Assembly (NCBI GenBank): GCA_003116975.1
Contig: BGKB01000027.1
Span: forward strand, 248,001-312,000
Reading direction: 5' to 3'
DNA: 64,000 bases
Origin: Aurantiochytrium sp. KH105
Taxonomy: Eukaryota > Sar > Bigyra > Thraustochytrida > Thraustochytriidae
Shown here: piece after piece, positions 3,667-64,000 of the stretch
Position numbering within the stretch: the stretch's first letter is position 1
Layout of the letters: each line of letters opens with the position of its first letter
Position numbers and translations under genes: made by a program
Notes under the pieces: generated by a model
What the model was told of the DNA's origin: nothing
Database searches by the model: none
Seen by the model: the letters and a program-made list of their open reading frames with translations, nothing else

Positions 3667-5357
3667 ACCCTTTGATAAAAGAATAAGAAGAAATAAAGGA
3701 AGACTGTCACCTTTCCGGGAATGATCTCCGAGTCCTGCAAAGTGTGCTTCTTGCTTCAAAGAGAAAAGGCTCTGCTCACATGTTGACTTTGCAATGGTCG
3801 CCTCTTGCGTCATGATGGTTGCAGAGACTGCGCATTTTCTACGATGCACCTTTGCTTCAGAGAGTTGCACAGTCGGGGGCACCCGTGGTGGGCAACAGCT
3901 TTTGCTCTTTGACCAAGTCATTTTCCATGCAACGCATGAAAGGGAAAGAAGATTTCTGAACAGCCTTTTATCACAACCTGGTCTTTGTGTGTAGTTGAAG
4001 GTACTAGCTGTGTTCGTAGGGCACCTTGGGAAGCTGACACAACGCCGTGGGGTTGATATGGGGGCCGGCAAGAAGCGCGCCTTCCCGTCGTCACCTGTCA
4101 CACAGGCTTGCCACCCAATAGGCCTAATCCATTTTCGAGAAATGAAAATAATGGAAATGCTAGGCCTTGCCTCCAACATGGCGTCTGCGTAAGCGCGACC
4201 TGGCTGGGCGAGGCCTGCAGGCGCTGCTGCCGAGAAGCATAAGGAAAATTTCACAGCACAAGCTGGTGATCCTTACAGCTGCAGCTGCCAAAGAAGGCTG
4301 GCTTTTCACAGGCACCGCTTCCCAGGAAATCCTTGTGGGGAAAGCTCGACCAGGCACGCTTCGGCCAGGCTTCAGGGCGACTTGCTCAGGGCGACACAGG
4401 TCTCCCCACCCCCTGCAAGCTATAAACTACGCGGGCCATACAAAGTTTAGCTCGAGCGCGAATTCTCTGCACGTAGTTGTAGCGATGCGAACGCGCGTCT
4501 TGGCAGCACGGCACGTTGCCACGCAGGCGCGACTAAGCGAAAGTATCAGCCTTGTTTTCCTCCCCACCACCTCTTGCCCCCTTCCCCTTCCCCTTCCCCT
4601 TCTCTCAAACCAACCGCGCTTTTGCAAGTCGTAGGCGCGCGCGTCCCCCGTATTCGTGGTCAAGCGAGTCGGCTAGGGACTCTCGCCTCGGAGCTGGGCC
4701 TGGAACTCCGCGCCGTAATGTGGCGTCAACCAGCCACCTTGGCTTCAGCCAAAACATGCAACGGCTTCCTCACAAGACTCGAAGGTGGGAAATGGATTAG
4801 TAGACACCCCACCGCCCACCACGCCCCCCCCCCCCGGCAAAAGCAAAGGACGCAGAGCATAGGAGACATAGTTCAGGCTTGCAAAAAGCCAGACTCAGCC
4901 GATAGATGCCTGGAGGATGGTGTCCATTGGCGGGAGGGACGCCGTCATGTTGCCTCGCCTTCAGAGCTTGAAAATTGCTATACCGCAGGCCCTGGAGAGT
5001 TTGCTGAGGACGACAGGGCTCTTGCTAATCTACCCAAGTTGACAGCGGTGAGTTTCTTGAGCGAGTCATTGTGAGGTGCCCGGAAACAAGAAATCCATTT
5101 GCGGAATGTTGCCAAAACGCCTCGCTCCTAAGAGGCACCTGGGGCTCGAATCGCGGATTCTTGCGATACCGCAGGTCCTGAATTAATTTGGGGGGGGGGG
5201 CGACAGAGCGCTTTGCCAATCGACATCCATATTTGCAGTAATTTTTTTTAATCGAAATTCGAGTGGAGCCCCCTCAGAAGAAAGCATACTTGAAACGGAG
5301 TCGGGTTGCACAGACGAGCGGCGTTGTGGCGTCGTGCTGTCGAGACGTTGAGACGCA
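3667..5357. other. intergenic between kinases 1 and 2
   Basis: No gene supported. Contents include AATCCATTTTC at 4126-4136, a pyrimidine-rich CCCCTT run near 4570-4600, a C homopolymer near 4827-4837 and a G homopolymer near 5190-5200. A diverged direct repeat of about 60 bases lies at roughly 4978-5035 and 5162-5220. AATCCATTT recurs at 5092, 266 bases before kinase 2. Confidence 0.6.
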
Positions 5358-53497: not shown

Positions 53498-54117
53498 CAA
53501 GTCTCCATTTTCGAGTCCTATTGATTCTACGCGCTCTTCAAAAGAAAAAAAGAAAAGAGGTCGATTGACTACGTTGCAAATTTTTATCATCATGACCCCA
53601 CCTTCGCCGTGGTGTCAGCCATCGACTCCCTGCCTTCCGCGCCAATGCTTTCTTTCCCCTTCCCGAAAGGCTGGTCGATAACGAATTTCCAGAGCACGTC
53701 GTAGGCAAGGGACCAATCGCCCAGTCATCTTTGCAGGAGGGACCCCACAAACTTACTACTGTGGGTGAAATGTGGGGTGTTTCGTCCCCAGGAGTCACTT
53801 CCTGACTCCAGATGATCTCCGCGGCGCTTCATCTGGCCTGGCCTGACCTGGCCTAGACTGAGCATGAGCATACCTTGCAGCGCGAAGTATGCCAGTCTTT
53901 GAGGCTATCCTTTGCGTGAAACGAGAGTTCTGATTTTTCTCGAATCGCAGAACTGCAACGCAAGCGGAAAGCGTTGGCCTATTCGTTTCTCGCTGTTGCT
54001 GCTGCTGCTACTGCTACTGCTGCTACTGCTGGTTGTGGTGGTGTCGATTCTGTCTTATCCGAACCAGGAATTGGACATCCTCGCAGCTGGCGAAAGAGAG
54101 ACTTTTTCCCGTGACAG
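53498..54117. other. intergenic upstream of the polyketide synthase
   Basis: No gene supported. A GGCCTGGCCTGACCTGGCC microrepeat lies near 53834. A CTG/CTA triplet run lies at about 53993-54031, ending less than 100 bases before the PKS start. Confidence 0.6.
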
Positions 54118-57100
54118 ATGGCATTCGAAAGCTATTCCACGCGGTGCGCTCAAGAACGCGATCTGAGTGCTCTTGAACGGCTCGAGAGTTTTGTAAAGCC
54201 GAGCTTTCGCGTAAGTGTCAAGGAGCTCAAGCATCGCGTCGCATCGTCCAACGGTACCTCTGGTGCGCTCATCCTGGAAATTCCCAATCATCATTCCGCC
54301 GCCCGAGCCTCCTCTGCGTCACTCTCGTCCGACGACTCGACATCGGCATCGTCGGCGCCAGAGTCGAGATCTTCGCAATCTGAAGACAACGACCAGCTGT
54401 CTGCAGGCAGACCTTACGCCAGTGCTGACAATACGCTTATTGTAGGCGTTTTGTACTTTGTTCGTGCGAACAAGCGCAAGACCCAGCAATTGCGGTACAA
54501 GTCTGTGTTTGACCAAGCTGACCCGGAAGGCGACACTGTCTTTTGGGTACATCTCGTGCTCGACCCGCAAGCACGAGACCTACTCGACTACTTTCATGCG
54601 GCTGCACGCACGTACTGCTTTGACACTCTTGGGGTTAACAATGTTCGTGCTCTTACTCATTGCAGCGATGTGAGTGAAGGGGCAATTTCCAGTTTGTGGG
54701 ATCTCGAAGACTACGTTACGACAGCCAAGCGCACGGATCGTAACCTGTTCTTGCACTCGAGCCACGGCGCAACCTTCGTTGGCCTTATTTCGGGCTACAA
54801 TATGCGCGACACAGTGAATGCAGGGTATGCCGTGATTATGCAGTACGATCGGGAGCCCGACACCAAGAATGCCGCGTTTGACGTCATGCGCAAGGACGCT
54901 ACGATCGCTCGCGTGTCAGTTTCTGTGCTTCGCGACCTCGTATGCGGTGCGATCGGTCTCTCCGACGAGGCCGGTCACAGGTCCTTTGATGCAGATCGCC
55001 CATGGTTTGAGCTAGGACTCGATTCTGTCTCGCTCATGGATTTGCACGGAAATCTCGAAACTGCGTTGAACAAGGAGCTCGATGTATCCTTTCTGTTTGC
55101 GATTAACACCTTTTCTAAGCTTGTGCGTGCCGTAGGCGACACAGACGAGGGCAAGGGCGATGAGGCAAGCCAGCATGCAGCGACCCGTACTCCAATGCCA
55201 GAGGCTAGAGGTGCAGTATCCACTGGTCTCTCCGTGCTTGGTCTCGGACTTCGCTTTCCTAACCATCGCGGTGCTGACACGGATCTAGAAACTCTCGAAG
55301 CCTTTCACGCAGCTCTTCACGAGGACGACGGGGACAACGCTTCCTACAAACGCCTCGTGCAGCGTGCGCGTTTTGCGGACCAATTTCTGGAAAAGGGCAT
55401 CAGTGCAGAACAAGCGCGCTGCATTCCCTTTGCGCAACGACTTGCCTTAGAGACTGCCTTCTCTGCGCTAGCAGATGGACCGCCTGGGCTTCTCGAGGCC
55501 GCCAATCGCCGCGTCGGAGTCTTTGTAGGCGCATGGGACGGAGGCTGTCGTGAGGAAATGCAAAAGACAAGTGAAGATGAAGCGGCTTCTGCACACGCTG
55601 CTGCGGGATTCTCAACATCAATCATTGCCAATCGCATCTCGTACATGCTTGACCTGTCTGGTCCAAGCGTTGTAGTGGATACAGCCTGCTCTAGTTCGCT
55701 AGTCGCGCTAGATTATGCATGCAAGTCCATTGCAGCGGGAACTTGTGAGTTTGCTCTCGTGATCGGCGTCAATGTTGTTGACGAGACAAATTCGGACTCT
55801 CGCACCGCCCTGCTCCGCCAAGGCGGGTTTCTCTCATCTTCATCGGCATGCTTTGCCTTTGATGACCGCGCCGACGGATATGCGAGAAGTGAAGGCGCTG
55901 GGGCACTTCTCCTTGCACGCGCGGGTCTTCTCCCTGGCGCGCAAGATTATGCACGTGCCAAGGTCGCTGCGGTCAGTGTGAACCAGGATGGACGTACCGT
56001 CAATCTCCATGCACCAAACCCTGAAGCACAAACAACGCTCATTCAAGAAGCGTGCCGCATGGCTGGCGTTGAGCCTCATCAAGTGTCTTTTGTACAGACG
56101 CATGGCACGGGAACGCGCCTGGGTGATCCCATCGAGGCAGCTGGTCTTCACGCAGCGCTGCGATCTTCCTCTTTCCCGAATGATTCACACAACGTCCAAT
56201 CACCATCGCTGGCGGCGCCGGAACCTTTGTTTCTGACGTCCATTAAGTCCCAATTTGGACACCTCGAAGGAGCAGCCGGGATGATCGGTCTCATTGCCAC
56301 TATACTCGCGCTGCAGACCCGGGAACTCCCTGCCAATCGTCGTCTGCAAGAACTCAATCCAGCCGTTGACTTTGATGCCTGGAATCTGGCTCCTGTGGGC
56401 TCAGTGGGTCCTGTGAAGCTACCTGCGGAAGCGCAAAGCCTTGTGGCCGGCGTTTCTTCGTTCGGATTCGGTGGGACAAATGCTCACGCTCTTTTACAGT
56501 CGGTCGGACCTCTTCGCGCACGTGAGGAATTTGCATCTCGGGGACCCATTCCTTGGTCTGAGAATTTTCACACAATTCCTTTTGCGCCATTGCTTTCGGA
56601 GCCGATCGATCTTGGGGATAAGAGCGATTTGGAAAGTCTTGTGGATCATCGTCTAGGGTCTCTTGAAGTAGTTCCGGGTGCTTTTTGGGCGATCATCGCG
56701 TCTGAAATGAATCCTGGCGCCCAACTTCTTGCCCTTGGCTTTGTTTCGCTCACGCAACTTCCGGTGGACGACGATTGGTCCATTTCACTGCGCCGTGGTT
56801 CCAAAAAGATGGCGATTGTCAACAACGCTGGTTATAGCGTCTGCGAGGCCACTGCACAGTACAATCTTTCCCCCTTGCAGGCGCTTGGCAGCTTGGCGGA
56901 TACCATGGCAGCCTGCTCGTGTGCCCTGGACCTCTCTTCATTCTACACCCGATTGGGAAATCGGTATGGTCCACGGTTCCAAGCGCTTCGTGAGGCACGC
57001 GTAAGTGACGATGGAGTCATTCTCGCCGATCTCTGTGTTGACAGACACTACTCATGTTCCGCGAGGGTCTCGCGTTCCATTCTACTCGATGCTGCGGCAC

Positions 57101-60100
57101 ATGCGTGCTTTCTTGCCTTTCAGAATCAAAGCGAAATCGAAGAACCTCATTACGCTAACGGATTCGAGGCACTTTGGTGCGATCAGCAATGGCTGCAGAG
57201 CAGTCCGGAATCCACAACATGGCGGTGCGTTGTCTATCGTCGAGATTCTTTGCGCTTCGATTGGGACATCTTCTCTCCAACGGGAAAGCTTGTCGTTTCC
57301 GCGAGAGGATTTACTTTAGGGAAGACGCGTGTAACCCGCTCCTCATCAGTCCCTCTGCAACGCCAGCACGTGGTTGTGTGCCGTTCTGTCTGGCAATTCC
57401 TAAGCAGCAATGAACTCGCTTCGCAGCGTCGCGTAGAGCCGGATGTTGTCATTAGCGAACCGTGCTGCGAATCGCTTCATAAGCGCATTCAAGGACTTCT
57501 CGAATCGACAAATCGACCACGCGTGTGTGTTCGTATCCAAGACTCTGCACAAGAGGGCTACATTCGCTCGCTGCGGCGTGAAGAGCCAGCATGGCCACTT
57601 CATATGTATTGCGGCCCCGATCACGAGTACGTTGTCGTTCTCGAGGATGAGCCAGAGGTTCTCGTATCTGGGCCAGATCAACTTGCTGTGCGTCGGCTGA
57701 TTCCTCTAGAAGATACCCGTGAGAGCACGATCACGAGTCCTTCGCCTGTCGTCTGCCCTGTTGAAAATGGAACCTATCTGATTTCCGGCGGAGCAGGTGC
57801 CATTGGGTTGAGGATGGCTCGTGAATTACTTGCACGTGGTGCTGGCAAAGTTCTTTTGTTGGGTCGCTCGAAGATGCCGAGCGGTCAATCAGCTGCATCT
57901 CTTCAGGGCTCTGTGTACCTGCAGTGTGACATTAGCGATGAGGCAAGTGTCCGCAGGGTTGTTGGGCCCTATGCGAACGAAATCCGGGGCGTCATCCACT
58001 GTGCAGGCGTTCTTCGCGATGGGATGATTGGAAAACTTTCCCATTTTAGCGAGGTTTTCGCCGGCAAAGTTGTTGGCGCAGAGTCGCTCATGAAAGTCAT
58101 TGACCCGCTTCGTGATACGCTTGACTTTTTCATACTTTGTTCTTCGGTCACTTCGTGCCTAGGAAGCGCGGGTCAAGCCAATTATGCTGCTGCAAATTCC
58201 GTCCTTGACGCACTTGCAGAGGCTGCAGCGTCAGAAAAGGTCGTTAGTATTCAGTGGGGGCCATGGCACGGCCCACAAAGCATGGCAGCTGCATCTGCGA
58301 CGAGGTGGGAACGTCTAGGACTGCCTCCCATGGATCCAGATGTCGCCACTGATGCGTTATTCTCTCTTAAGCGTGGTTGCGGTCCTGTAGTCTGTATTGC
58401 AGGCATGGATCCTCATGCCCCAGGAGCAGCAAGTTCGTGGGCTCGCGAACCCATGGTGCGGGAGCTCTTTCACCATGCGAACACAATGCCATCTTCAAAA
58501 TCCAGGACAACGTCTGATGACGCGCGGGTGCTGGTTCGCCGCATTTCCTCTACTTTCATTGACGATTATGACGTTGGCGAGAACGAGATGACACCATGGC
58601 GTGATGCTGGTATGGACTCACTCGCAATGGTAGAATTTCGCAATATGCTGCGCATGGCAATTCCAGAGCACATTACGTTGCGAGACACCGTGCTCTTTGA
58701 CTATCCAACCCCTCGTGCGCTTATTGACTATTTGTCAGAGGCTATGGATGGTTCTCGTGTGCCTAGTCAGGGCCAAAATCTCGAAATGGTAGTCTCTGCT
58801 GCTTCGAGTGGTGCCTTGGCTGTCGCCGGAGTTGCTTGCCGACTTCCGGGGGGAGTCGACTCCCCTGCAGCATTTTGGGATCTTTTGCAGAGTGGACGTG
58901 ACACCATGACCGATATTCCTCTGGGCCGGTTCGACTGGGAAAAGTCTTCAGATCGTCTCTATGCTCGAAAAGCTGCCTTTGTGGACAACGTGGACCGCTT
59001 TGACGCCAACAAATTTAAGATCGCGCCCGTTGAAGCACAGCAAATGGACCCGCAACAGAGACTTGCACTTGAAGTTGCCTCCGAGGCACTCGAAGACGCT
59101 CAGTTGGATGCGGACGCTCGAGTTGGGGTCTTTGCTGGCGTCATGACCAACGATTGGGCTCGGCTCATGGACCCAGCCAAGCCTACGGCATATTCTGCGT
59201 CAGGTCAGATTCCTTGCGTTCTCGCCAACCGAATCTCCTATGTTCTCGGCCTTCAAGGTCCGTCCATGGCAATCGACACTGCATGCAGTTCTTCCCTTGT
59301 GGCGCTGGACGTCGCAGCTGCATCGTTGAGTCGCGGAGACTGTGACGCAGCAATCGTGCTTGGTGTGAACCTTATTCTCGACGACGGTGTTCACGCTGAG
59401 GAATGCGCGGCCCGAATGCTTTCAGCCTCGGGGCGCTGTGCAACTTTTTCTGAAGATGCAGACGGCTACGCTCGCGGTGAGGGCTGTGTAGCATTCGTTC
59501 TCGAGCCAGAAGACACTGCAGAGAGAGCTGGCAAGGCAACATGGGGCAGTGTTCTCTCCACCGCAGTCAATCAGGATGGACGAAGCGCCAACTTGACATC
59601 TCCGAATGGTCGAGCACAAGTTGACGTGATCCGCCGAGCACTTGCTCGAGCAAAGCTTGTCGCAAACGATATCAGCTACGTTGAAACGCATGGCACTGGC
59701 ACTCCGCTAGGGGACCCCATCGAAATTGGAGCCTTGAGCGACGCTCTCGACAGTCATACAGGACAGGTTTGTCTGGGTGCTCTCAAAACCGTCATTGGTC
59801 ACGGAGAGGCTGTTGCTGGCGCCTCGGGTGTGCTCAAGGCGTTGCTTTGCATTGAGCACAGCGAGGTTCCAGCCAATTTGCATCAGTCAAAGATGAATTC
59901 CAAGGTCGCAGAGGTCGCTGCGCCTTGGATGCGATTTCCTCAAAAGCGACCATTTGAGTTGCCCGAACAAGCCATTGCAGGCATCTCGGCATTCGGATTT
60001 GGCGGGACAAACGCCCATGCCATCGTGACAGGGCCAAAGGGTCGCGCGCGCACGTCCTCTGAAAGTACGCGAAGAATGAAGAATCAGACCGCCCCGCGTA

Positions 60101-63100
60101 TGCCATGGAAAGAAGATGAGCTCGTCTACAGAATCTCATGGAGTGCTAGCTCTTCTTTTCCTTCCTCTGACAACACCGCCGAATTGACACCAATCCATCA
60201 GGTGCAAACTTTTGAGGATGTCCTCGACGTGGTTCTAAACAAGCCAGCGCATGAAAGACTCAAGGTGACCTTTGTGACCCACGACTCTGCAACGTGTGCC
60301 TTTATTCGCTCGCTGCGGCTCGCTCGTCCTTCATGGCAGCTTCGTCTTGTTGAATCGCCTCGTGCATCGCTGGATGGAGTCATCCTCGACAGGGACGCTC
60401 TCGAGCAACGCGTAGATGATCGTGGTCACGTGAGCATTCCGGTTCTTCAGCGAGCTCCACACTTTGTGCCATACAGTCTCGGTGGCCTTCAGCATCTTGG
60501 TCCTGTACTTATTACAGGAGCATCAGGAGGCATCGGTCGCGCGCTCATTGACTCGCTCCTCGACGCGGGGCTTTCCCAGATTTACGCTCTCTCGCGAAGC
60601 GGCAAGGCCTCGAATGATCCGCGTGTGGAAGCGATTCAGTGCGATGTTTGTGATGCCGCATCAGTGGAGCGCGCCGCAGAATACATTGGGCCAAGCCAGG
60701 TCTCTTTCATCTTGCACGCAGCGGGCATTCTCGAAGAAAAGAGCGTTCTCGAGCTAAATTCCGACACTGTGAAAGCTCACAATTCGGCAAAAGTTCATGG
60801 GACGCGTAATCTTGCTTCGAGCTTTCCGAGTGCTTCACTGATTGCGTTTTCGTCAACATCTTCGGTCTTTGGTATGCGTGACGCTCCTGCATACGCGATG
60901 GCAAACGCTTCTATGGAAGAAGAAATTACTCGTCTGCGCGCAGATGGTGTGCGCGCAGCAAGTTTACTTTGGGATCTATGGGCAGAGACTGGCATGGCGC
61001 ACGCGCGCTCGATGGGTAGTACTAAACGTGGCTTGAGTACCCGCCGGGCTTGCCAGATTCTTGTCGGTGTACTTCAGAATTGGAATGAAACAAACGACCC
61101 TAATGGGCTCATCATTCTCGCAGCGGATCTTGCTCGTTTGCGCCAAAGCTTGGCCAATCCAGCGCTCTTGGACGCACTCGCACCATCTGCAAACCTAGCG
61201 GCTTCGGCGCCTGAGCGAAGTGAGTCTGGCGATCGTTTCGCACCTCATCTGGGTCCTTCTCGACCGCCTCTTTCGCAGAGTCTGCGTCAAGCCTCCACTG
61301 CTGAACGCAAAGCTATCCTGGAAGACTGGCTAATCGTCAATGCTCGGCAGCGCTATACGGACACGAGTGCTACTCTTACGCCCCAAACCTCCTGGCAGCA
61401 GGTCGGTTTCGACTCTCTGTCCATGACCGAATTTACTGCCGCTTTGAATGATGCCATTGGGTTCCGCAACTCGCCGGATGAGCTCTCGGACACTGTCATG
61501 TTCGATTATCCTAACGCGCATGAACTTGCGAGCCACGTAGCCCAGGTGTGGGAATTGGAGTCGCGAAGCTTCGTCAGCGAAGGCAATCCCGCTTCGATAG
61601 TTGCAGACCAAGTGCCTGAAGCAGCTGTTGTGAGCATGGCTCTTCGTTTCCCTGGATCGCGCCTGAACGCAAGTCCTGAGGGATTTTGGGACTTTTTGTG
61701 CAGCGGAGGCGACGCGATGCAGGACATTCCTCCAGAACGCATCCCAACTTTGGCTCGCGACGATGTTGACAAGGAGGACGGGAAACGATTCTCTGGCGTA
61801 TACGTCCGCAGGGGCGCCTTCTTGCACCCAGATCTCTTTGATGCCGACATCCGTGGAGCCTTTCCTTTTTCAGATGCAGAAAGCCTAGCCATGGACCCTC
61901 ATCAACGTCTTGGCCTTCAAGTCGCAGGCGAGGCGCTCGAGTCTGCCAAAGTTGCTGGCGCCAACATGACTTGCGTTGGAGTCTTTGTTGGAGCGCAAAA
62001 TACAGAGTACACGCTGTCCCAGGCTGATCGAGTGGGAACCTTTACTGCGACAAGCACAGCTCTTTCCATCATCGCCAATCGCATTTCCTACGCCTTTGAC
62101 CTGTCTGGCCCCTCTATGACAATCGACACGGCATGTTCTTCATCGCTCGTCGCTCTGGACGCCGCGCTAAAGGCTCTTCACGCAGGTGATTGCACGAGCG
62201 CGCTCGTTTTGGCCGTCGATCTGATGCTTTCGCCCCACCGCTTTGAGACTACCTGCGTGGCACGCATGCTTTCGCCAAACGGTCGTTGCGCGACCTTTTC
62301 GGATGCGGCCGACGGATATGCTCGCGGTGAAGGCTGCGCTGCTTTGGTTGTGACACTTGACCATTCAAGTGAACTTCCAGCTTGGGGCATTGTTCACGGC
62401 ATCGCGCTCAATCAGGACGGCAAGAGTGCAAATTTGACATCTCCGCGTGGGCCCGCCCAAATCGCCTGCATCGAGTCTGCCTTGCAGCGTGCAGGTGTTG
62501 TGGATCGCGATCAAGTCGTCTTTATCGAAGCACATGGCACGGGGACCAAATTAGGCGATCCTCAAGAGCTCGAGGCTCTGTCGACCGTCTTTAAAGAGCG
62601 ACGCAAGCCCTTGCATGTTGGTGCCGTCAAGTCATCGATTGGGCATCTCGAGGCCGCCGCTGGTCTTGCGGGTGTAATCAAGGCACTATTAAGCCTCAAA
62701 CACGGCGTGCTGCCTCCGAATTTGCACTGTGATCAGCTCAATCCCCGTATTGCAAAGCTTCAGACGCGCTGTCCTCTGCGCTTTCCTCAAGGCCAGATGA
62801 TCAAATTGGAACCTGCAGCGCACCGCCTTGCTGGTGTCTCTTCGTTTGGATTTGGTGGCACGAATGCTCACGTGATTCTTGGATCCGTACCGGATGCACG
62901 TGCCGACCGCGCAGCTCGTTGCTTTCGGCCAAACCTCTTTATCGCACCTGCGATCGAACTTCGTCCGGTAACCGGTGTTCCAGGCAAGTGGAAGGAATTA
63001 TTGCTGCCTAGGACCGCAAATCTCATCCGAAACCACCGCGTCGGCTCACTTCCAGTGCTCCCTGCGACATCGTACATGGAGCTCGTGCACCCACTCTTTG

Positions 63101-64000
63101 AAGGGGCCGCCCTGGAGTTTTCGGATCTTGATTTGCGTAGTATGTACTTTCTCGAGATGGCGAGGCGCAGGGAAGCAAAAGCAGACGCCTCTTTGGAGTT
63201 TGATCTCGAGCTAGATGAAGTCACCAGCACTGTGTCGATTTCCTCGGCCCGCGACGGACGCCTTCGAGCGACGATGAAAGTAAGAAAGTTGGAGAACGCG
63301 CCTCCACGAGTTGATCTCGCCATGCTTCGTGAAAAGTGCAGGCGCGAACTCCCAAGTGGCGACGCATTGTACGAAACAATTGGAAACCAATACCAAGGGC
63401 CATTCCGCGCCGTGTCTGCCGCATGGTCTAGCAAGGATGGTGACTTGCTGCTTGGTCGAGTGTCAATGGACCAGTTCGTTTCAGCGGAAACCCTTGCTTC
63501 TGCCTGGCTAGACGCGGCATCGCACGTGGCGCTAGCCGCAATGGACTTGGAGCATCGCAAAAAACCAGTCTATGCAGAGAGTGTAAAGGGCTACATGCTT
63601 GCGGCAGCGAACATGAAGCGCCAAGCCGCTGCCGATCCCTTTGTTTGGTCGTGTCTTACAAAAACGTCAGACAATACTTTCGACATGGAGATCTGCAGAG
63701 ACTCCGGCGAGGTTCTCGCTCAAGTTCGTCAGTTCAGCTTCGGGTTCTTCTCTGCGACGTCATCCGAGATCTCGAAACCGTTGCAAGATTCGACTCGATT
63801 GTGGAGAGATGAGTGGGTCGAGCTTAACCTTGGAAGGGACGACTCGCAACTCGCTGTTGAGGTCATCGATCTTCCTACCGTAGAAAGCTTACTCCCAGAG
63901 TTGGCCCATCGCTTGCGCATGGGTCCATCCAATTCTTATGTAGTGCTGGCGCACACAGCCATGCACTGTGGGCTCATCGCATGCACGCGGCGCGAGTACA
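54118..64000 (+). CDS. multimodular type I polyketide synthase lacking AT domains (3' end beyond window)
   Basis: The frame is open for 9.9 kb (3294 codons) and runs off the window. The ATG at 54118 follows an in-frame TGA directly, so the start is firm. Domain order: unrecognised N-terminal region (1-270); carrier domain, LGLDS Ser303; KS1 about 368-790, Cys524; DH, DHRLGSLEVVP His844 and LLDAAAH Asp991; KR, SGGAGAIG near 1224 and Tyr1356; carrier, MDS Ser1501; KS2, Cys1723; KR, TGASGGIG near 2137; carrier, FDS Ser2433; KS3, Cys2673; DH, NHRVGSLPVLP His2973 and WLDAASH Asp3132; then the edge. Each KS keeps DTACSSS, HGTGT and a GH motif. No acyltransferase GHSxG is present in any module, so acyl units must come from a separate AT. 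It is not the thraustochytrid PUFA-synthase layout. Confidence 0.93.
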   Translation, partial: MAFESYSTRCAQERDLSALERLESFVKPSFRVSVKELKHRVASSNGTSGALILEIPNHHSAARASSASLSSDDSTSASSAPESRSSQSEDNDQLSAGRPYASADNTLIVGVLYFVRANKRKTQQLRYKSVFDQADPEGDTVFWVHLVLDPQARDLLDYFHAAARTYCFDTLGVNNVRALTHCSDVSEGAISSLWDLEDYVTTAKRTDRNLFLHSSHGATFVGLISGYNMRDTVNAGYAVIMQYDREPDTKNAAFDVMRKDATIARVSVSVLRDLVCGAIGLSDEAGHRSFDADRPWFELGLDSVSLMDLHGNLETALNKELDVSFLFAINTFSKLVRAVGDTDEGKGDEASQHAATRTPMPEARGAVSTGLSVLGLGLRFPNHRGADTDLETLEAFHAALHEDDGDNASYKRLVQRARFADQFLEKGISAEQARCIPFAQRLALETAFSALADGPPGLLEAANRRVGVFVGAWDGGCREEMQKTSEDEAASAHAAAGFSTSIIANRISYMLDLSGPSVVVDTACSSSLVALDYACKSIAAGTCEFALVIGVNVVDETNSDSRTALLRQGGFLSSSSACFAFDDRADGYARSEGAGALLLARAGLLPGAQDYARAKVAAVSVNQDGRTVNLHAPNPEAQTTLIQEACRMAGVEPHQVSFVQTHGTGTRLGDPIEAAGLHAALRSSSFPNDSHNVQSPSLAAPEPLFLTSIKSQFGHLEGAAGMIGLIATILALQTRELPANRRLQELNPAVDFDAWNLAPVGSVGPVKLPAEAQSLVAGVSSFGFGGTNAHALLQSVGPLRAREEFASRGPIPWSENFHTIPFAPLLSEPIDLGDKSDLESLVDHRLGSLEVVPGAFWAIIASEMNPGAQLLALGFVSLTQLPVDDDWSISLRRGSKKMAIVNNAGYSVCEATAQYNLSPLQALGSLADTMAACSCALDLSSFYTRLGNRYGPRFQALREARVSDDGVILADLCVDRHYSCSARVSRSILLDAAAHACFLAFQNQSEIEEPHYANGFEALWCDQQWLQSSPESTTWRCVVYRRDSLRFDWDIFSPTGKLVVSARGFTLGKTRVTRSSSVPLQRQHVVVCRSVWQFLSSNELASQRRVEPDVVISEPCCESLHKRIQGLLESTNRPRVCVRIQDSAQEGYIRSLRREEPAWPLHMYCGPDHEYVVVLEDEPEVLVSGPDQLAVRRLIPLEDTRESTITSPSPVVCPVENGTYLISGGAGAIGLRMARELLARGAGKVLLLGRSKMPSGQSAASLQGSVYLQCDISDEASVRRVVGPYANEIRGVIHCAGVLRDGMIGKLSHFSEVFAGKVVGAESLMKVIDPLRDTLDFFILCSSVTSCLGSAGQANYAAANSVLDALAEAAASEKVVSIQWGPWHGPQSMAAASATRWERLGLPPMDPDVATDALFSLKRGCGPVVCIAGMDPHAPGAASSWAREPMVRELFHHANTMPSSKSRTTSDDARVLVRRISSTFIDDYDVGENEMTPWRDAGMDSLAMVEFRNMLRMAIPEHITLRDTVLFDYPTPRALIDYLSEAMDGSRVPSQGQNLEMVVSAASSGALAVAGVACRLPGGVDSPAAFWDLLQSGRDTMTDIPLGRFDWEKSSDRLYARKAAFVDNVDRFDANKFKIAPVEAQQMDPQQRLALEVASEALEDAQLDADARVGVFAGVMTNDWARLMDPAKPTAYSASGQIPCVLANRISYVLGLQGPSMAIDTACSSSLVALDVAAASLSRGDCDAAIVLGVNLILDDGVHAEECAARMLSASGRCATFSEDADGYARGEGCVAFVLEPEDTAERAGKATWGSVLSTAVNQDGRSANLTSPNGRAQVDVIRRALARAKLVANDISYVETHGTGTPLGDPIEIGALSDALDSHTGQVCLGALKTVIGHGEAVAGASGVLKALLCIEHSEVPANLHQSKMNSKVAEVAAPWMRFPQKRPFELPEQAIAGISAFGFGGTNAHAIVTGPKGRARTSSESTRRMKNQTAPRMPWKEDELVYRISWSASSSFPSSDNTAELTPIHQVQTFEDVLDVVLNKPAHERLKVTFVTHDSATCAFIRSLRLARPSWQLRLVESPRASLDGVILDRDALEQRVDDRGHVSIPVLQRAPHFVPYSLGGLQHLGPVLITGASGGIGRALIDSLLDAGLSQIYALSRSGKASNDPRVEAIQCDVCDAASVERAAEYIGPSQVSFILHAAGILEEKSVLELNSDTVKAHNSAKVHGTRNLASSFPSASLIAFSSTSSVFGMRDAPAYAMANASMEEEITRLRADGVRAASLLWDLWAETGMAHARSMGSTKRGLSTRRACQILVGVLQNWNETNDPNGLIILAADLARLRQSLANPALLDALAPSANLAASAPERSESGDRFAPHLGPSRPPLSQSLRQASTAERKAILEDWLIVNARQRYTDTSATLTPQTSWQQVGFDSLSMTEFTAALNDAIGFRNSPDELSDTVMFDYPNAHELASHVAQVWELESRSFVSEGNPASIVADQVPEAAVVSMALRFPGSRLNASPEGFWDFLCSGGDAMQDIPPERIPTLARDDVDKEDGKRFSGVYVRRGAFLHPDLFDADIRGAFPFSDAESLAMDPHQRLGLQVAGEALESAKVAGANMTCVGVFVGAQNTEYTLSQADRVGTFTATSTALSIIANRISYAFDLSGPSMTIDTACSSSLVALDAALKALHAGDCTSALVLAVDLMLSPHRFETTCVARMLSPNGRCATFSDAADGYARGEGCAALVVTLDHSSELPAWGIVHGIALNQDGKSANLTSPRGPAQIACIESALQRAGVVDRDQVVFIEAHGTGTKLGDPQELEALSTVFKERRKPLHVGAVKSSIGHLEAAAGLAGVIKALLSLKHGVLPPNLHCDQLNPRIAKLQTRCPLRFPQGQMIKLEPAAHRLAGVSSFGFGGTNAHVILGSVPDARADRAARCFRPNLFIAPAIELRPVTGVPGKWKELLLPRTANLIRNHRVGSLPVLPATSYMELVHPLFEGAALEFSDLDLRSMYFLEMARRREAKADASLEFDLELDEVTSTVSISSARDGRLRATMKVRKLENAPPRVDLAMLREKCRRELPSGDALYETIGNQYQGPFRAVSAAWSSKDGDLLLGRVSMDQFVSAETLASAWLDAASHVALAAMDLEHRKKPVYAESVKGYMLAAANMKRQAAADPFVWSCLTKTSDNTFDMEICRDSGEVLAQVRQFSFGFFSATSSEISKPLQDSTRLWRDEWVELNLGRDDSQLAVEVIDLPTVESLLPELAHRLRMGPSNSYVVLAHTAMHCGLIACTRREY

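Follow-up and report, generated by a model that had tools for sequence, protein, structure and literature searches.

A modular polyketide synthase with no detectable acyltransferase in a protist nuclear genome, probably charged in trans

A long gene in a protist nucleus encodes the ordered domains of a modular polyketide synthase (PKS), and no acyltransferase (AT) is detected in any of its four modules. We consider it likely that the product is a complete AT-less type I modular PKS, which starts the chain on a GNAT-ACP unit, extends it four times, releases it through a thioesterase (TE) and is charged in trans by a free-standing AT. The gene begins in the window (the whole stretch of 64,000 nucleotides that was analyzed, C27:248001-312000) of a host genome of 76.0 Mb in 367 contigs (G000), and it runs past the window edge.

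An ORF scan gave an open frame at 54115..63999 (+) that is still open at the edge. In the continuation of the same contig it stays open without interruption for 5,708 codons, as far as C27:319241; from the first ATG at window position 54118 to the stop codon at C27:319239-319241, it encodes a protein of 5,707 amino acids. Pfam matches, counted at E<=0.01, and motif positions, with phmmer for the GNAT domain, give the domain string GNAT-ACP / KS-DH-KR-ACP / KS-KR-ACP / KS-DH-KR-ACP / KS-cMT-KR-ACP-TE. An earlier note on this DNA had read three modules in the order KS-DH-KR-ACP, KS-KR-ACP and KS-DH-, an order which both kinds of evidence confirm, and had suggested annotating the gene past 64000, which adds a fourth KS, a methyltransferase and a TE, and no AT. 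The N-terminal GNAT domain was not part of that description. The features, in window coordinates, are as follows.

54118..54900 (+): GNAT-like starter domain with a Ser-rich insert; frame residues 2-262; phmmer GphF E 1.5e-5, CurA 0.028
54916..55149 (+): loading ACP (LGLDSVS); PF00550 at 271-340, motif at residue 302
55231..56502 (+): KS1, the most divergent KS; profile match 373-796; DTACSSS, HGTGT, GHLE
56557..57354 (+): DH of module 1 (start approximate); PF14765 best stretch 926-1071
57367..58434 (+): KR of module 1 including its structural half (start approximate); PF08659 1219-1385; NYAAAN
58522..58749 (+): ACP1; MDSLA at residue 1500; PF00550 matches three stretches before the window edge
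58816..60030 (+): KS2; PF00109 1569-1802; triad motifs
60112..61224 (+): KR of module 2 (start approximate); second PF08659 stretch; SDR-type matches from residue 2131
61306..61554 (+): ACP2; FDSLS at residue 2432
61624..62889 (+): KS3; PF02801 2758-2872; triad motifs
62977..63789 (+): DH of module 3 (start approximate); second PF14765 stretch; PF21089 2962-3015, E 0.008, under its cut-off
63802..64000 (+): first part of the module 3 KR, which continues past the window edge
Past the window: ACP3, KS4 (residues 3754-4184), a stretch of ~400 aa, cMT (~4660), KR4 (NHAAAN), ACP4 and TE (GSCLG)

The lack of an AT, which the earlier note had claimed for the part in the window, holds for all four modules, including the part beyond 64000. 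Neither the genome search nor the Pfam scan (E<=0.01) matches PF00698, the AT family, to the PKS gene, and a profile built from 74 ATs has no match in either of the two copies of the gene described below, with all filters off and at E<=100. The same profile scores the host's PUFA-synthase AT at 284 bits, its free-standing ATs at 157-230, and divergent host ATs lower, at 38 bits (the synthase on C98) and 32 bits (an OrfB-like protein), although several of these ATs were in the training set and the scores are thus no independent control. KR2, with its nucleotide-binding motif, accounts for the sole G-x-S-x-G of the protein. An AT concealed in module 4, at residues ~4190-4600, was considered and rejected, the AT profile being without a match there; DH likeness in these residues did not rise above that of shuffled sequences, and PDB searches gave nothing below E 0.8. 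The whole stretch of about 400 residues from KS4 to the methyltransferase (L009 3182-4414) contains no recognizable domain.

Loading in trans is plausible because the genome holds free-standing AT-like genes. The search for a stand-alone AT that the earlier note had proposed yields three apparent allelic pairs of malonyltransferase-like genes, on C33/C47, C90/C49 and C98/C89. The C33/C47 enzyme is nearest to the human mitochondrial MCAT and has no in-frame ATG upstream of its domain (MPSKVHVLFPGQG); the C90/C49 enzyme is nearest to bacterial FabD-type enzymes and has a basic extension, rich in Arg, Lys, Ala and Ser, after the first Met of its frame; and the C98/C89 enzyme is divergent. Since no targeting extension is visible on C33/C47, this pair is our best guess for the cytosolic partner, with an upstream exon possible. 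Two observations count against such a partner: no free-standing AT adjoins the PKS, all 14 AT matches listed in the genome search being on contigs other than C27 and C56, and the one AT that shows no sign of a targeting extension has a mitochondrial enzyme as its nearest neighbour. Short frames on C29/C39 and C291/C318 carry matches to PF01648 (PPTase-type), and none of these matches is on C27. The divergent AT gene, at C98:190,097, is a few kb from a gene for an AT-KS-ACP protein at ~195,000-199,100 of the same contig (G000:C98, L022; the frame continues below 195,000; allele on C89), which is followed by some 300 residues with a resemblance, judged by eye, to a cobalamin-independent methionine synthase.

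Charging without any dedicated trans AT, by the AT domain of a type I FAS-like protein or of the PUFA synthase, is the alternative that survives best, and we regard it as unlikely. Such domains do exist in the host. The FAS-like frames on C30/C87 combine KS, AT and PPTase matches in one frame of ~4,160 codons (4,162), which we read as a type I FAS, and a PUFA synthase with an AT domain is encoded on C72/C155; on C72 a PfaA-like gene (993 bits against a cut-off of 1010, the contig ending inside the gene) stands head to head with a gene for a PfaD-family part (706 bits). This arrangement and the 4,162-codon frame suggest that the host is a thraustochytrid. These ATs, however, are embedded in other large synthases, and free-standing transacylase-like genes are present.

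The recognizable neighbours of the gene among the scanned frames are ordinary protist genes, in agreement with the nuclear location that the earlier note had given it. Thirteen flanking frames were scanned, which are part of all the frames, the larger ones being scanned in part. Eight of them have matches (fn3/EF-hand, PfkB, Ctr copper transporter, NDH2-type oxidoreductase, Rsm22, NPR2, MULE transposase, and a WD40/NPHP3 protein) and five have none. Bacterial contamination was rejected on the strength of these flanks. The MULE transposase domain is downstream of the PKS gene (L010 1128-2129). A biosynthetic cluster was also considered and rejected, as no AT, PPTase or recognized tailoring enzyme occurs in the 13 scanned frames.

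The ancestry of the KS domains was examined with a panel for which prokaryote genomes were scanned with the four query KSs; the best 80 loci among the matches listed were taken, and the KS domains were labelled by the presence or absence of a following AT. Because query motifs guided the choice of rows and the host is the sole eukaryote among them, the tree lacks the closest true relatives of the queries. In the 86-row tree from this panel the four query KSs form one clade (support 98/93), which lies inside a set of 31 rows made up of 24 cis-AT rows, the 4 queries, 2 unclassified rows and 1 row of the host's own (support 100/96). Of the 19 rows labelled AT-less, 15 fall in a separate 20-row group, with support of only 90/90 and one cis-AT row included. 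When the queries were constrained to join the 19 trans-AT-clade rows, lnL fell by 44.6 (p-AU 0.055, 86 rows), and the constraint was not rejected at 0.05; without long rows and without KS1 (75 rows) the drop in lnL was 48.0 and p-AU 0.012 (0.0116). The host's PUFA-synthase KSs are placed away from the queries, two of them on long branches, and its PfaA-type KS (L024) groups with Shewanella and cyanobacterial rows. The KS of the AT-KS-ACP gene on C98 may be sister to the four queries: a tree constrained in this way is 3.1 lnL better than the free tree (p-AU 0.58), so the free search had missed at least one better tree. The KS tree that the earlier note had proposed therefore puts the queries inside a mostly cis-AT set, close to the branching inside a cis-AT family after a recent AT loss which it had named as speaking against its reading, and carries no mark of a recent loss.

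Rankings against PDB structures are mixed and not decisive. KS1 has GfsA on top and an AT-less KS lower, and KS4 matches CurL and mycocerosic acid synthase. Close kinship to structure 7zma was rejected, its 519 bits being the sum over two KS domains (singly 207 and 251); the next matches of KS2 are CurL (327 bits) and an AT-less KS (294 bits).

The region after each KS was compared with that of bacterial KSs. PF22336 and PF22621, which represent the KS-AT linker domain, each match 16 of 18 bacterial AT-less KSs taken with a 200-residue tail (E<=0.001), and they match 14 and 17, respectively, of 21 cis-AT KSs. Neither matches any of the four query KSs, even at E<=0.1; PF16197 matches all four, and the positions displayed for it are confined to its first half. 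Every module thus lacks the KS-AT linker domain as well as the AT.

The kinship with bacterial trans-AT synthases that the earlier note had suggested finds no support in these data, and by the tests run the PKS is outside that family. That it is a horizontally acquired member is very improbable. The missing AT would fit such an origin, as would a GNAT-ACP loading unit on a bacterial protein whose linker is of the trans-AT type (L115 of Eleftheria terrae, see below) and an all-row AU test that fell short of rejection (p 0.055). Against these stand the grouping of the queries with cis-AT KSs, with p-AU 0.012 on 75 rows, the linker absent from four of four modules, the clustering of the query KSs by gene into one clade, and the ordinary protist genes in the scanned flanks.

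The simplest explanation for a shared KS ancestry and an identical double loss in all four modules is a single loss that preceded duplication, the alternatives being repeated loss or conversion between modules. We propose, with rather less than even confidence, an independent eukaryotic route in which a cis-AT-type module lost its AT and linker, was duplicated to four modules within a single gene, gained a bacterial-type GNAT-ACP starter and came to depend for charging on a transacylase whose ancestry lies in fatty-acid synthesis.

Cys, His and His motifs are found in four of four KSs in both copies of the gene, as the earlier note had said of the triads in the window, and D-S-[LV] is carried by five ACPs, with one ACP motif per module. 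KR1, KR2 and KR3 have Y-x-x-x-N. KR4 reads NHAAAN in both copies; with one motif pattern applied to the fetched loci, which include the host's other genes, the active-site residue was Tyr in 35 of 36 KRs and His in one. The TE aligns to RedJ- and RifR-type thioesterases and has GSCLG against their GHSMG or GHAMG, from which its nucleophile is predicted to be Cys.

The first 260 residues have no Pfam match, yet they match the GNAT loading domains of solved structures (phmmer: GphF E 1.5e-5; a polyketide synthase-related protein 0.0025; CurA 0.028), and this region of GphF/CurA homology stands directly before an ACP. Trp, Thr, His and Arg are the residues with catalytic roles in the CurA GNAT. 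Compared with four bacterial plasmid-borne GNATs, the PKS domain keeps the Thr and two His common to all four, while the common Trp and Arg are replaced, which makes decarboxylation unsure. A predicted structure of the domain was discarded (mean pLDDT 36.8). A search for GNAT domains in six bacterial genomes gave a single weak match, in one genome.

A second copy of the PKS gene, apparently the other allele, is on contig C56. It has 5,831 codons, with 124 additional upstream residues of which about half are a single leucine run, and the two proteins are 95.8% identical across 5,705 aligned residues, with unchanged KS, KR and TE motifs. Over 5,704 codons dN is 0.020, dS 0.090 and dN/dS 0.22, so that purifying selection has acted between the copies. 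By domain stretch, dN/dS is 0.00-0.28 in 18 of 19 (in ACP2 dS is 0 and the ratio is not computable), the top values being 0.28 in the KS4-to-methyltransferase stretch, which also has the highest dN, and 0.26 in KR4. A CTG-type repeat lies directly upstream of the start codon in the window (54000-54040); in the C56 copy such a repeat is in frame upstream of the ATG and encodes the run of ~65 leucines. That the gene is a decaying old assembly line, which lost its AT and is now losing active sites, is highly doubtful: the replaced GNAT Trp and Arg and the His for Tyr in KR4 would fit decay, whereas a 5,700-codon frame open in two copies that differ by 4.2% in protein, a dN/dS of 0.22, and retained KS, ACP and KR1-KR3 motifs argue against it.

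From the domain order we infer how a complete AT-less synthase of this kind would work, provided that the gene is expressed. A free-standing malonyl-CoA:ACP transacylase would charge the five ACPs in trans, and the GNAT-ACP unit would supply the starter, most simply acetyl from decarboxylation of malonyl-ACP, as has been proposed for LynB1, CurA and GphF (PMC10127204, in the part available). Each of the four modules would then extend the chain once and the TE would release it. If the modules act collinearly, the predicted product is the C11 compound 3,7-dihydroxy-2-methyldeca-4,8-dienoic acid; an inactive last ketoreductase would give the 3-oxo analogue instead.

The literature shows the premise of the earlier note, that trans-AT lines are mostly bacterial, to be out of date: algal trans-AT synthases have been published, and a thraustochytrid gene of identical domain string was tabulated in 2018. 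The available text of PMC4661987 describes AT-less multimodular PKSs from chlorophytes and Emiliania, which resemble the present one in being eukaryotic and multimodular, with the AT displaced in trans and the modules duplicated. They differ in that those of most sequenced chlorophytes are in the megadalton range and that most are said to lack an MT, whereas our PKS includes one, together with a GNAT loading unit and a TE. It has the features of the algal type in that it is multimodular, has no integrated AT and has free-standing ATs in its genome.

Pelagophytes are stramenopiles. AT-less modular PKSs are also described from the pelagophyte Chrysophaeum taylorii, where, in the text available, all start with an adenylation-like domain (PMC10366177), whereas ours starts with GNAT-ACP. 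The closest description is that of the thraustochytrid Mn4_04057, a "PKS-like" gene of low expression (FPKM 3.52) with the string PP-KS-DH-KR-PP:KS-KR-PP-KS-DH-KR-PP:KS-MT-KR-PP-TE (PMC6050695), which has the same domain order and no AT when compared by printed string, not by sequence; the available part of that description is without a GNAT domain, the linker loss, a KS phylogeny or the TE residue. Our literature search, conducted largely outside subscription journals, likewise found no report of a thraustochytrid GNAT domain, linker loss or Cys thioesterase, and no earlier report of a His-type last ketoreductase.

Among bacterial systems, the Eleftheria terrae protein L115 shares the GNAT-ACP start and the absence of an AT from its Pfam matches, and differs in keeping a RhiE-like linker after its KS and in having an N-terminal AprA-like methyltransferase; this plasmid gene (4432-11979), with the order MT-GNAT-ACP-KS-KR-MT-ACP, is annotated only as an SDR oxidoreductase. 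The loading modules of CurA and GphF (PDB 2ree, 6mfc) have a homologous GNAT; ours lacks the Trp and Arg of the four bacterial GNATs. With bacterial trans-AT synthases, whose KSs are placed by substrate and not by gene (PMC7930024, in the part available), the PKS has in common the missing AT, and it departs from them in its KS clade, its linker, the placement of its KSs and the lack of an AT in the same cluster. It departs from PUFA synthases in that its KSs are apart from the PfaA-type KS and it has no tandem ACPs.

The PKS is therefore a further case of a known eukaryotic AT-less type and its novelty is modest. If loss did precede duplication, it would be a compact test case for how eukaryotes arrive at AT-less lines without borrowing a bacterial trans-AT line, the order of AT displacement and module duplication being the step that the available text of PMC4661987 calls unclear. 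With four modules, against the megadalton range of its algal relatives, it is of a size that suits genetics and in vitro work, and for a thraustochytrid-like protist it comes with a defined product prediction.
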